This document shows positions 8,084 through 14,853 of a stretch of 34,146 nt of DNA, one piece after another. Each line of letters starts with the position of its first letter. Within the stretch, counting starts at the first letter, position 1. This DNA is from Actinomycetota bacterium (lineage in GTDB: Bacteria; Actinomycetota; Actinomycetes; Actinomycetales; Microbacteriaceae): assembly GCA_013297625.1 (NCBI GenBank), contig JAAFHT010000016.1, forward strand, positions 1-34,146. Direction: 5' to 3'. Made by a program: the position numbers and the translations under genes. Below the pieces are notes generated by a model. The model was not told the DNA's origin. It saw only the letters and a list, made by a program, of their open reading frames with translations, and made no database searches.

Positions 8084-9796
8084 TCAGCCCTGCTCGCGCA
8101 TCGGAATGCGCACGCCGAGGTCGGCCACGATCTGCTCGCCCTCGGTGTAGCCGGCGTCGATGTGGCGAATGACGCCCATGCCGGGGTCGTTGGTGAGCAC
8201 GCGCTGCACTTTCTGCCCGGCGAGCGCCGTGCCGTCGGCAACGACGACCTGCCCGGCGTGGATCGATCGGCCGATGCCGACTCCCCCGCCGTGGTGAATC
8301 GACACCCACGTGGCACCGCTCGCGGTGTTGACGAGAGCATTGAGCAGGGGCCAGTCGGCGATCGCGTCGCTGCCGTCTTTCATCGACTCGGTCTCGCGGT
8401 AGGGGCTCGCGACGCTTCCGGAGTCGAGGTGGTCGCGGCCGATGGCGACGGGAGCACTGAGCTCGCCGCTCGCGACCATGTCGTTGAAGCGCTCGCCGGC
8501 CTTGTCACGTTCGCCATAACCGAGCCAGCAAATGCGCGCCGGCAGGCCCTGGTAATGCACGCGCTCTTGCGCCATCGGAATCCAGCGCTGCAGGCTCTCG
8601 TTCTCGGGGAACATCTCGAGCACGGCGCGGTCGGTCGCCGCGATGTCGGCGGGGTCGCCGCTGAGCGCCGCCCAGCGGAACGGCCCCTTACCCTGGGCGA
8701 AGAGCGGGCGAATGAACGCGGGTACGAAGCCCGGGAACGAGAACGCATCGGCGTAGCCCGCCGCCTTCGCCTCGGTGCGGATGTTATTGCCGTAGTCGAA
8801 GACTTCGGAGCCCGCGCGCTGGAAGCCAACCATCGCCTCCACCTGTAGCGCCATCGACGCCCGCGATGCCGCGGCGAACCCGATGGGGTCGCGCTCGCGC
8901 GCCGCGTGCCACTCGTCGACCGTGTGCTCGATGGGCAAGTAGGCGAGCGGGTCGTGCGCACTCGTCTGGTCGGTGACGATGTCGATCGGGGCGCCCATGG
9001 CGAGCAAGCGTGGAAACACCTCGGCTGCGTTGCCGAGCACGCCGATCGAGAGCCCGCGGCGGGCATCCCGTGCCGCGATCGCCAGCTCGAGAGCGTGCTC
9101 GAGGGAGTCGGCTTGCACGTCGAGATAGCGGTGCTCGACGCGCCGGGCGATGCGGCTGGGGTCAACGTCGACACAGATCGCGACGCCATCGTTCATCGTT
9201 ACGGCGAGCGGCTGAGCGCCGCCCATGCCGCCGAGCCCGCCGGTGAGGGTGATGGTGCCGGCGAGAGTGCCGCCAAACTTCTGCGTCGCGACCGCGGCGA
9301 AGGTTTCGAAGGTGCCCTGCAGGATGCCCTGGGTTCCGATGTAGATCCACGAGCCGGCCGTCATCTGGCCGTACATCGTGAGGCCGAGCGCCTCGAGGCG
9401 ACGGAACTCATCCCAATTCGCCCAGTCGCCGACGAGGTTCGAGTTCGCGAGCAGCACGCGCGGCGCCCACTCGTGCGTCTGCATGACGCCGACGGGGCGA
9501 CCCGACTGCACGAGCATCGTCTCGTCACCCTTGAGCGTCGCGAGCGTGCGCGTGAGGGCGTCGAAGCTCGCCCAGTCGCGCGCGGCCTTGCCCGTGCCGC
9601 CGTAGACGACGAGCTCATCGGGGTGCTCGGCAACCTCGGGGTCGAGGTTGTTCTGCAGCATGCGCAGGGCGCCCTCTTGCTGCCAACCGAGCGTGTGCAG
9701 CTGGGTGCCGCGGTGGGCGCGAACGGGGCGGGGGCCGCTGGGTGACGGCGCTGCGCCGGATGCTGCGGCCGCGGCCGCGCTGTCGGTGAGGGTCAT
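8084..9796 (-). CDS. hutU: Urocanate hydratase
   Basis: HutU is an NAD+-dependent cytoplasmic enzyme converting urocanate to imidazolonepropionate. The 570-residue product is near the usual ~555-560. It shows the family's landmarks in order: [64 protein letters not shown], the conserved cysteine region [33 protein letters not shown] and [21 protein letters not shown]. The Ala-rich extension at the N-terminus (~residues 5-20) accounts for the extra length. It starts 21 bp after the hutH stop. Confidence 0.97.
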
Positions 9797-11441: not shown

Positions 11442-12215
11442 ATGCTCGTGCCCGACGTTCCCGCCGCTCGCGCCGCCCTGCGCATCGTCACCCACCTCGC
11501 GCACCACAATGATCCGGTGCCGGCCTCGACCCTCGCGCGTGAGTTGGAGCTGCCGCGGTCAACCGTCTACCAATTGCTGCGCGTGCTGCAAGACGAGGGC
11601 TTTGTCGTGCACTACCCCGAGGCACGGGCTTACGGCTTGGGGGCTCTCGTCGCTGAGATCGGCGGCTCGGTGTTGAGCGCCAGCCGACTCGCTCGGCTCG
11701 GCGGGCCGCTGCTCGAGCGCCTCGTGCGCGCGGCCCCCGTTCCGGTCGTCGCGCAGTTGGCCGTGCTCGCGGGTAGTGATGTCTCGTATGTCGGCCAGTC
11801 CTCGGCGCCGCGCGCACCGACCACCGTCGTGCGCGTGGGCGTTCGCCTGCCCTCCCACCTCACGGCCACGGGCCGCGCGATGCTCGCCGCACTGCCCCCG
11901 GCGCAAGTGCGCGCGCTCTTCCCCCATCGCGATTCGCTGATCACCCGCCGCGGAGTCGGGCCGCGCACCTTGCCCGAGCTTGACCGCATTCTCGCCAACG
12001 CCCGCGAGGTCGGCGTCGCGAGTGAAGACGGCGACATCACGGCGGACTACGCCTCGGTCGCGGCCACCGCCATCGACCGCACGGGCTACCCGGCCGCGGC
12101 GCTCGGGCTCACCTACCGTGCAGAAGCAGTCAGCGCCGACCAGGTGAGTACCCTGGCCGGCGCTGTGCGTGAAGCGGCAGCTTCCCTTACGGCGCGGCTG
12201 CAGGGTCGGTCGTAG
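11442..12215 (+). CDS. IclR-family transcriptional regulator of the hut cluster
   Basis: This is a 257-residue DNA-binding regulator. The N-terminal winged helix-turn-helix (~1-65) includes STLARELELPRSTVYQLLRVLQDEGFVV. The IclR effector-binding domain follows (PVPVVAQLAVLAGSDVSYVGQS; LPSHLTATGRAMLAALPP; GVASEDGDITADYASVAATAI). The ATG at 11442 has AGGGGG just upstream; the longer track start would run through hutH. It is the only confident plus-strand gene and is divergent from hutH, so it probably senses a histidine-pathway intermediate such as urocanate, which is inference. Its last 121 bp, including the stop, recur exactly at 13175-13295. Confidence 0.9.
   Translation: MLVPDVPAARAALRIVTHLAHHNDPVPASTLARELELPRSTVYQLLRVLQDEGFVVHYPEARAYGLGALVAEIGGSVLSASRLARLGGPLLERLVRAAPVPVVAQLAVLAGSDVSYVGQSSAPRAPTTVVRVGVRLPSHLTATGRAMLAALPPAQVRALFPHRDSLITRRGVGPRTLPELDRILANAREVGVASEDGDITADYASVAATAIDRTGYPAAALGLTYRAEAVSADQVSTLAGAVREAAASLTARLQGRS
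12095..12215 (+). repeat. 121-bp direct repeat, copy 1 (3' end of iclR)
   Basis: This segment is identical, base for base, to 13175-13295, offset by exactly 1080 bp. It ends at the last base of the iclR stop codon; one mismatch (t versus c) follows, then four more matching bases. It forms the left boundary of a ~0.96-kb insert. No transposase or integrase is present. Confidence 0.97.
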
Positions 12216-12315
12216 TCGCCAGCGGTCCGAACAAGGGCGCAAAGGGCGACTGAAGAGGGCCATTCACGGTCGCCGCGACGAACCGTGGGGGCCCATCGCC
12301 GGGGGCGCCCATTCA

Positions 12316-12789
12316 CTACTCACGCGGAAAGCACACGCTCTGTCCATCGAGAGATGCGAAACCGTTAGACCCGACGCTGAACTGAATCGAGAGCCCGTCG
12401 GGCTGAAAGGCGACGACGTCGAACCCAAAATCGCCCGCGTCGCGTTGCTCCGCGCTGAAACCACGACTCTCGAGATGACGTTGCACTGCGTCCGCAGCCT
12501 CCTGGGCGGTAACCGACACAGTGCCCTCGGTGTCGATTTGCCAAGAGCCGCCCGGCTGACCATCAGGCTGAGTGCAGGCACCGGGGACCTGCAGCTGGTC
12601 GTCAGTGGACCATCCCTCCCCGATGATCGCTTGCATTGCCTCGCTCTCAGCGAGCAGGCCAGCCTTTGCCTCCTCTGCGGTCACCATCACGGAACCTCCT
12701 GTCTGCGCGCTCATCGCACAACCCCCAAGTCCCAGGCTCACGGTGATGATCACCACGAGCGCACCTTGTACCCAAAGCCGTCGCTTCAT
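12316..12789 (-). CDS. Predicted lipoprotein, function unknown
   Basis: The 157-residue product starts MKRRLWVQGALVVIITVSLGLGGC, a lipoprotein signal peptide with lipobox LGGC at ~21-24, so the mature protein would be anchored to the outer face of the membrane by Cys24. The rest is a small soluble domain with no motif I can name (WSTDDQLQVPGACTQPDGQPGG; TAQEAADAVQRHLESRGF). I choose the ATG at 12789 over the track start at 12834 because it begins the signal peptide. Its ATG overlaps the upstream hydrolase fragment's stop by 4 nt (ATGA), so the two came as an operon pair. It is inside the repeat-bounded insert and its original promoter is probably lost. Confidence 0.72.
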   Translation of the reverse strand: MKRRLWVQGALVVIITVSLGLGGCAMSAQTGGSVMVTAEEAKAGLLAESEAMQAIIGEGWSTDDQLQVPGACTQPDGQPGGSWQIDTEGTVSVTAQEAADAVQRHLESRGFSAEQRDAGDFGFDVVAFQPDGLSIQFSVGSNGFASLDGQSVCFPRE

Positions 12790-13174
12790 GTCCCTCCTCC
12801 GATTCTCGCGATCTGGTCGAGAGAGTTCGTACATCGATCCAGGTAACCCTGCTTGTCGCCGCTCGACATCGACTCCAGCAGCATGCCGTCGTCGTCGACA
12901 TCCTCGGGAGCGTAGCTCCTCCCGGAGCTGAATCGCTCCGCGCCGAACGTCGTATCCAAGCGATCAAGGTTCCCCGAGGCGAACATTCCGATCGGCGCGA
13001 TGTGGTCCTTGCCCGCCGGCGTGACGAACACCTGTCCCGTGACACGTCGAGATGGGTGACCGAATCGACAAGCTTTGCGACACCCGGTGATCCGAACATC
13101 ACGAAGGCATCAGCGCTTGCCCCCGTCGAGAGAACGTAAGTCGGCATCTGAAAACCATACGAGTGGGCGAGCAT
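12786..13174 (-). pseudogene. 3' fragment of a DUF1023-type alpha/beta hydrolase, frameshifted
   Basis: Two reading frames together give one protein remnant. The upstream frame reads MLAHSYGFQMPTYVLSTGA...FVMFGSPGVAKLVDSVTHLDV; near 13040 the sense moves to another frame, reading GQVFVTPAGKDHIAPIGMFASG...TTFGAERFSSGRSYAPED. The HSYG nucleophile motif and GSPGV segment followed by an acidic residue and a HG/SG region resemble actinobacterial DUF1023 hydrolases. The fragment begins exactly where the 121-bp repeat ends, so everything before the nucleophile elbow (usually most of the protein) is missing. The single frameshift could also be a sequencing error, but the truncation cannot. It was probably translationally coupled to the lipoprotein gene. 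Confidence 0.65.
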
Positions 13175-13295
13175 CGCGGCGCTCGGGCTCACCTACCGTG
13201 CAGAAGCAGTCAGCGCCGACCAGGTGAGTACCCTGGCCGGCGCTGTGCGTGAAGCGGCAGCTTCCCTTACGGCGCGGCTGCAGGGTCGGTCGTAG
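13175..13295 (+). repeat. 121-bp direct repeat, copy 2 (orphan iclR tail)
   Basis: This is an exact second copy of the iclR 3' end (compare 12095-12215), detached from the rest of iclR. Its antisense strand also encodes the last ~9 codons and stop of the neighbouring small 11-mer-repeat gene (13267-13506). This suggests that iclR and that gene were originally convergent and overlapped by ~29 bp before the insertion. Confidence 0.96.
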
Positions 13296-13506
13296 CCGCC
13301 TCAGCTTCGGGCTCGTCGCCGTCGAAGTGATCCTTGATGTCACCCACGACGCCCTGCGCCTTCTCGGCCGCGTCGCCCGCGAACTCCTTTACGTCGCCCG
13401 CGAACTCCTTGGCGTTATCTGCCACGTCTCCCGCGACATCCTTCGCCTTCTCGGCAACGTCGCCCGCGATGTCTTTGGCCTTGTCAACGATGTCGTCGAT
13501 ACCCAC
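13267..13506 (-). CDS. Small 11-residue-repeat helical protein (MT0933/LEA-like)
   Basis: The 79-residue product reads VGIDDIVDKAKDIAGDVAEKAKD... with repeating units such as KAKDIAGDVAE, KAKDVAGDVAD and NAKEFAGDVKE, then an acidic/Ala tail. Such 11-mer amphipathic repeats resemble the small actinobacterial proteins annotated as MT0933-like antitoxins and also LEA-type stress proteins. No toxin partner is next to it, so I would not assign antitoxin function. The start is GTG at 13506, preceded by GGAAGGA; the track start at 13596 lacks this and has unrelated sequence. The C-terminus (ATTDPAAAP) is encoded within the orphan iclR repeat. Confidence 0.7.
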   Translation of the reverse strand: MGIDDIVDKAKDIAGDVAEKAKDVAGDVADNAKEFAGDVKEFAGDAAEKAQGVVGDIKDHFDGDEPEAEAATTDPAAAP

Positions 13507-13608
13507 AGTTGGTCCTTCCTGACGGTCGGGAGCATCCCGCCGCCCCCACCATTGTGGCGAAAGACGCGACCGGGCAGAAGAGCCACCGCGACACACCCAG
13601 CAACAGCA

Positions 13609-13642
13609 AAGCGGGGCCGCACCCGTCGGTGCGACCCCGCTT
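13609..13642 (-). terminator. Intrinsic terminator of tuf / str operon
   Basis: Minus-strand RNA folds as AAGCGGGGUCGCACC-GACG-GGUGCGGCCCCGCUU, a 15-bp stem with one G-U pair and a 4-nt loop, followed by UUUGCUGUUGC. The single plus-strand mismatch (c/a) becomes a wobble pair only on the minus strand, showing which transcript it serves. It lies 18 bp after the tuf stop. Confidence 0.9.
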
Positions 13643-13659
13643 GACAGTGAGTCAGAAGA

Positions 13660-14853
13660 CTACTTGAGGATCTTCGTGACCGTGCCGGCGCCAACGGTGC
13701 GGCCACCCTCACGGATGGCGAAGCCGAGGCCCTCTTCCATGGCGATGGGCTGGATCAGCTCAACGACCATGTCGGTGGTGTCGCCGGGCATGACCATCTC
13801 GGTGCCCTCGGGCAGCGAGATGACGCCGGTGACGTCGGTGGTGCGGAAGTAGAACTGCGGGCGGTAGTTCGTGTAGAACGGGTTGTGACGGCCACCCTCG
13901 TCCTTCGAGAGGATGTACGCGGTGCCCTCGAAGTTCGTGTGCGGCATGACCGAACCCGGCTTGACGACAACCTGGCCGCGCTCGACGTCTTCGCGCTTGG
14001 TGCCGCGAAGGAGCAGACCACAGTTCTCGCCGGCCCAGGCCTCGTCGAGCTGCTTGTGGAACATCTCGATACCCGTGACGATGGTCTTCTGCGTCGGACG
14101 GATGCCGACGATCTCGACCTCGGAGTTGATCGCGAGGGTGCCGCGCTCGGCGCGACCCGTCACAACCGTGCCACGGCCGGTGATCGTGAAGACGTCCTCG
14201 ATGGGCATGAGGAACGGCTTGTCCTTGTCGCGCACCGGGTCCGGCACCGACTCGTCGACGGCGTCCATGAGGTCGAGGATGGACTGCGTCCACTTCTCGT
14301 CACCCTCGAGAGCCTTGAGGCCCGAGACGCGCACAACGGGAGCGTTGTCGCCGTCGAAGCCCTGGCTCGAGAGCAGCTCGCGAACCTCGATCTCGACGAG
14401 CTCGAGGATCTCTTCGTCGTCGACCATGTCGCTCTTGTTGAGGGCGACGAGCAGGTAGGGCACGCCGACCTGCTTGGCGAGGAGCACGTGCTCACGCGTC
14501 TGAGCCATCGGGCCGTCGGTCGCCGCAACCACGAGGATCGCGCCGTCCATCTGAGCAGCACCGGTGATCATGTTCTTGATGTAGTCAGCGTGGCCCGGGG
14601 CGTCGACGTGCGCGTAGTGGCGCTTCGGCGTCTCGTACTCAACGTGCGAGATGTTGATGGTGATACCGCGCTGACGCTCTTCGGGAGCCGAGTCGATCGA
14701 CGCGAAGTCGCGCTGAACGTTGGTCGCCGACGGGAACTTGTCGGCAAGCACCTTCGAGATGGCAGCGGTGAGCGTGGTCTTGCCGTGGTCGACGTGACCG
14801 ATGGTTCCGATGTTGACGTGCGGCTTGCTCCGCTCGAACTTGGCCTTAGCCAC
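13660..14853 (-). CDS. tuf: Elongation factor Tu
   Basis: EF-Tu is the GTPase that delivers aminoacyl-tRNA to the ribosome. The 397-residue product has G1 GHVDHGKT (19-26), G3 DAPGHADY, G4 NKSD, and the C-terminal beta-barrel ending [16 protein letters not shown]. The start codon is GTG, preceded by a strong GAGGAGG. It is the last gene of the str operon, 105 bp after fusA, and is followed by a strong terminator. Confidence 0.99.

Follow-up and report, generated by a model that had tools for sequence, protein, structure and literature searches.

The window, a stretch of 34,146 nucleotides, is contig C10 in full; the contig belongs to a draft genome (G000) of the genus Microcella. On its forward strand lies an iclR gene (11442..12215) that is intact and of full length (257 aa), its product carrying the Pfam domains IclR_C (4e-21) and HTH_IclR (3e-11). 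The last 121 bp of this gene (12095..12215) terminate on the last base of the stop codon and recur as a direct repeat at 13175..13295 with 121/121 identical positions, an exact match that is far beyond chance. Stretching the repeat to 126 nt brings in one mismatch, T at 12216 against C at 13296. The perfect repeat, its end on the iclR stop codon and the intact iclR on its left had already been reported in an earlier, sequence-only reading of this DNA, and all of them hold.

The right, distal copy of the repeat overlaps a small gene (13267..13509, reverse strand) encoding an 80-aa repeat protein that is weakly YtxH/CsbD-like. Domain searches and comparison with the relative G008 identify it as the native tail-to-tail neighbour of iclR. 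The last residues of this protein (...DPAAAP*) are encoded by the antisense strand of the right copy, as the sequence-only reading had noticed, and the G008 protein has an identical C-terminus. The tuf gene (13660..14853, reverse strand) forms the native right-hand boundary of the iclR-tuf interval, as judged by comparison of Microcella loci. This interval (window 12215-13660; loci L206-L216) is variable in the genus, where, among the loci examined, it ranges from 349 to 2197 bp and houses differing small membrane-protein genes.

Between both repeat copies stands a unique, foreign-looking insert of 959 bp (12216..13174), a refinement of the previous estimate of about 0.96 kb; together with one repeat it amounts to 1080 bp. 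Its GC content is 0.62, versus 0.66 for the genome, and it is absent from all other Microcella genomes searched. It had been described as a gene fragment plus a lipoprotein gene without any recombinase, and this composition is confirmed. The lipoprotein gene (12316..12789, reverse strand) is intact, most likely starting at 12789 rather than at 12834, and encodes a lipobox (..LGLGGC) and two conserved Cys; its GC3 is 0.68, versus 0.83-0.89 in neighbouring genes. The predicted fold (pLDDT 81) has as its best PDB match the DUF4853 protein 4mjg, a weak similarity (E 1.6e-3) that gives no function. Positioned upstream of the lipoprotein gene, the fragment (12786..13177, reverse strand) is the 3' part of an Abhydrolase_8-type gene, truncated by the right junction immediately ahead of ..MLAHSYG and frameshifted near 13020-13046. 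Its two frames match Microcella hydrolases, mostly of 471-538 aa, with a weak PF06259 signal.

An intact pair of the same kind is found elsewhere in the genome, on contig C139, where a hydrolase of 484 aa (PF06259, E 1e-27) accompanies a lipoprotein of 150 aa that is a distant homologue of the inserted one. Identity between the two pairs is only about 30-40% at the protein level, so the insert is not a copy of this other locus. Hydrolase homologues are present in most Microcella genomes searched and the hydrolase-lipoprotein pair recurs within the genus. The insert DNA has no match above chance level in 26 Microcella genomes, and no donor or close relative of it was found among 300 genomes of the family, 396 of the order, GTDB 220, plasmids and phages. 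When the lipoprotein and the C139 hydrolase were scanned with PADLOC, no match came up, and for that reason a defence gene was rejected as the nature of the cargo. That the lipoprotein has an immunity-like role is only a guess. Neither a transposase within the insert nor an inverted repeat at its two ends was detected. Transposition with target-site duplication is ruled out, as the 121-bp repeat is too long compared with the usual 2-14 bp and a transposase is lacking.

The draft genome comprises 2.43 Mb in 181 contigs, with an estimated completeness of 97% and contamination of 2.9%. Its smallest contig is of about 2 kb, and some gaps of 10 N point to automated scaffolding. Contig ends (L064-L183) overlap by at most 126 nt, a signature of the k-1 type, with several cases of 126, 125 and 124 nt and a single one of 121 nt. 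At some of these ends, SNPs lie past the overlap, so that strain variation breaks the assembly in places.

Empty sites and age of the insertion

The relatives of this iclR are found mostly in Microcella genomes, the closest one being G008 (MAG FW.016), whose flanks are 93-96% identical to the window at this locus. In G008 the locus is single and uninterrupted: window positions 12095-12220 and those from 13175 onward both align to the same place (L008, from 9598). Only one repeat copy is present there, with a tail-to-tail overlap of iclR and the small gene, which is the empty locus that the sequence-only reading had predicted in a close relative for an insertion. Every other Microcella locus examined also has a single iclR 3' end. 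The same reading had held that relatives all sharing the arrangement with diverged repeats would speak against it, and none of the other Microcella genomes searched carries the insert. Compared with G008, no recipient DNA is lost and 121 bp are duplicated. The gene end has been restored on the left and the native end displaced, the distal copy continuing into the flank that is native in G008.

The two copies show no difference from each other, while the genome departs from G008 at 9 of the 121 positions. Either the event is young, then, or gene conversion has homogenised the copies. The zero divergence had been taken as a sign of a recent event. The identity stands, but homogenisation may also explain it.

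Recurrence at other gene 3' ends

A survey of direct repeats covering 1.2 Mb, about half of the genome, identified four further loci in which a low-GC insert stands at a gene 3' end with a copy of that end, 39-243 bp long, beyond it. The genes concerned are thuA, a DUF554 gene, a dnaQ-like exonuclease gene and a DUF3418/HrpA-like gene, and the GC content of the inserts at all loci is 0.57-0.62, versus 0.66 for the genome. In the DUF554 gene (C29; L092 1129-2531), an end repeat of 57 bp (96.5% identity) surrounds a 1.3-kb insert with an ORF of 234 aa, and the site is empty in G008, G016 and G012 with exactly that overlap. The HrpA-like gene (C100) has a repeat of 49-52 bp and is empty in G008; G016, G012 and G004 bear their own copies of this end (110-119 bp) at other distances. 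G012 (L255 2376-3387) carries a PIN/Phd toxin-antitoxin pair between 111-bp copies (85% identity) of the HrpA-like 3' end. The dnaQ-like gene (C66) displays a 39-bp repeat and an empty site in G010. Its history is less simple, G008 having the insert without the second copy.

The thuA locus (C40; L103 3013-9080) includes four copies of the gene 3' end, which share one end point within the gene. Beyond the native copy, the others measure 243 bp with a 60-bp deletion (134+50 bp matching), then 49 and 22-30 bp, and the copies are separated by an ORF of 203 aa, two further ORFs and an Rhs-core gene. G008 has one copy, and the first step of the array is common to the single-contig genome G016 (86.5% identity). 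The array looks like the product of serial insertion at one gene end. Within this recurrent class, the iclR locus is the freshest member and in itself a modest event.

Alignment of each locus with its empty relative reveals a common anatomy. The distal copy runs into the native downstream flank at the iclR, DUF554 and HrpA-like loci, and at thuA it retains the native gene tip. The proximal, functional copy carries new sequence that starts in the final few codons or at the stop codon. For instance, thuA ends in ..FDTAN* before the insert, whereas G008 and the displaced copy have ..FDA*, and the DUF554 gene ends in ..GR* versus ..GN*. The native copies finish between 0 and 12 nt short of the last stop-codon base, and the other end of the repeat varies in its depth inside the gene. 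The sequences show insertion, displacement of the native 3' end and recurrence. A variable inner boundary combined with a constant outer one is expected if the donor had the core gene followed by the accessory gene.

The same boundaries bear on site-specific integration at the iclR 3' end, a route also proposed by the sequence-only reading, in which an integrase acting in cis and since lost, or acting in trans, would restore the gene end. A restored gene end with a displaced native end matches integrative elements that use gene 3' ends, and right boundaries at most 12 nt from the stop codons would suit them. However, the insert has no recombinase, the repeats range from 39 to 243 bp and the aligned ends display no obvious common core. 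A recombination core common to the iclR and thuA ends is ruled out, as their only matches are of 9-10 nt, which is the chance level. With neither an integrase nor a core common to the other 3'-end duplications, this route is very unlikely.

Recurrence also weighs on the possibility that the arrangement was created by the assembly or by a mixture of strains. In this case, the second copy would result from a de Bruijn graph that forked where iclR ends (T versus C at 12216) and from an erroneous join at 13174/13175, the insert perhaps stemming from another strain or organism. The draft has 181 contigs, its 10-N gaps betray automated scaffolding, the insert occurs in no other genome and the 121-nt repeat (126 nt with one mismatch) is close to the 126-nt limit of contig-end overlaps. 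Yet at 121 nt the repeat is shorter than this limit and would not necessarily break the graph, and the contig is continuous through the locus. Repeat lengths at the other 3'-end duplications are unrelated and mostly shorter, their copies have diverged, and the same architecture is found in single-contig genomes. An artefact is thus rather improbable at iclR. The idea that the internal repeats of 121 and 125 nt are both artefacts is weakened as well, as the thuA repeat also occurs in single-contig G016 and has additional, diverged copies.

One-sided homologous recombination as the proposed route

The iclR insertion, seen in one draft assembly, is best explained by homology-facilitated illegitimate recombination (HFIR) with a duplication as its outcome, a reading that we hold to be probable by a modest degree. 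The donor would be a strain with the lipoprotein/hydrolase pair placed behind its iclR. Incoming DNA would pair through RecA with the iclR 3' end, leading to a homologous crossover on the left; homology would end at the gene end, and the crossover could occur anywhere within the gene. The other end would be joined illegitimately, perhaps over 5 bp, 121 bp upstream of the iclR end and on a sister copy of the chromosome. Joining on the sister copy would yield a duplication in place of the usual deletion, and the lipoprotein gene would arrive together with what is left of its partner hydrolase, a truncated and frameshifted tail. Deletion of recipient DNA is the classic result of HFIR; for a duplication, a second copy of the chromosome is needed, as demonstrated for merodiploids induced by transformation (PMC3784515).

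At the junctions, the left join stands at the end of the iclR homology. The distal join point is located 121 bp before the gene end, where the insert side and iclR have CGCGG in common (13175..13179), a possible microhomology. This 5-bp match is within chance. We infer a homologous left join, the route of uptake and the role of the cargo.

Natural transformation would be the likeliest entry route. A ComEC family gene (PF03772) is present in the genome and in four relatives, and this gene presence suggests natural competence of Microcella. Linear DNA is taken up naturally by two other Microbacteriaceae (PMC11577799). Ku is absent in five genomes, and end joining by Ku was rejected on that account.

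Several features would also fit a circle, made from a DNA fragment with the final 121 bp of iclR and the lipoprotein segment, that integrates by one homologous crossover, as the sequence-only reading suggested. The product of such an event would be identical, no repeat (39-243 bp) falls below the minimum lengths usual for RecA, and variable left with constant right boundaries match circles closed at random points. On the other hand, small circles would have to form without a replication or recombinase gene, and protein searches of the collections turned up no free circle. The suggestion stands as to the product, and the circle keeps a small share of the probability. The recurrence of the pattern at other genes, which the sequence-only reading had not foreseen, favours a general recombination route.

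Replication template switching without donor homology (MMBIR-like), in which the 121 bp would be re-copied on return, accounts for a perfect direct repeat of arbitrary length, and the absence of Ku, which makes end joining unlikely, is in its favour. It leaves unexplained why the boundaries are at gene ends, as well as the differing proximal tips of the thuA, DUF554 and HrpA-like genes, which are expected from a homologous donor. This route is highly improbable.

Known systems and significance

HFIR is known experimentally from the competent bacteria S. pneumoniae, A. baylyi and P. stutzeri, and from E. coli conjugation (PMC3240628). As in these systems (PMC3240628), a foreign segment would be anchored by homology on one side and have little or no homology at the other join. 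The iclR locus differs in that it duplicates 121 bp of recipient DNA and deletes none, and in that the donor and the transformation are postulated ones. HFIR was also proposed for arrays of orphan immunity genes at the T6SS loci of V. cholerae, in which accessory genes, in part accompanied by a 3' remnant from a partner gene, were stacked successively behind a conserved anchor (PMC5361080). In Microcella, by contrast, the core genes that serve as anchors (iclR, thuA, dnaQ-like or HrpA-like) are unrelated and are not the secretion effector genes, the anchor end is retained in a partial copy, and the immunity role of the iclR cargo is putative.

Transformation can produce duplications through interchromatid pairing of incoming DNA, a likeness that makes transformation-induced merodiploidy a second point of comparison (PMC3784515). 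The duplication there spans about 107 kb between resident repeats (PMC3784515), whereas about 0.1 kb is involved at iclR, with a foreign insert. Small variable genome segments, which are likewise short accessory segments between conserved genes, were ascribed to illegitimate recombination, HFIR being invoked among the routes, and 10-18% of them are flanked by direct repeats (PMC2884548). Those repeats are mostly shorter than 30 bp (PMC2884548), in contrast with the gene 3' ends of 39-243 bp in Microcella. No direct precedent for insertions with a 3'-end duplication emerged from the literature searches.

Tentatively, and with less confidence than for the iclR event, Microcella and perhaps other competent actinobacteria may habitually acquire genes behind core genes without a recombinase, the displaced 3' ends recording the order of gains in arrays. 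The accessory genes concerned would be toxin-antitoxin, Rhs/immunity-like, lipoprotein and membrane genes, accumulating in an ordered array as at thuA. Gains of single small genes are usually visible only as presence or absence. The footprint composed of a new gene tip, the cargo and the displaced old tip reveals polarity and boundaries, and at thuA also the sequence in which genes were gained. Should one-sided recombination commonly end in duplication, this would offer a simple genomic signature of transformation-driven acquisition without mobile elements and would explain accessory genes standing directly behind core genes.

Further gene repeats were encountered in these genomes. As another example of its own, G016 includes a decayed partial copy of tuf (L009 ~8180-8331) between tuf and the small repeat-protein gene, beside a gene for a 172-aa membrane protein, and this duplicate ends 54 nt short of the tuf stop codon. 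On contig C103 of the genome studied here (L166 12391-14512), a row of three membrane-protein genes shares the same terminal residues, ..QNDTKGLV*, and repeats of 49 bp mark the junctions between the genes.
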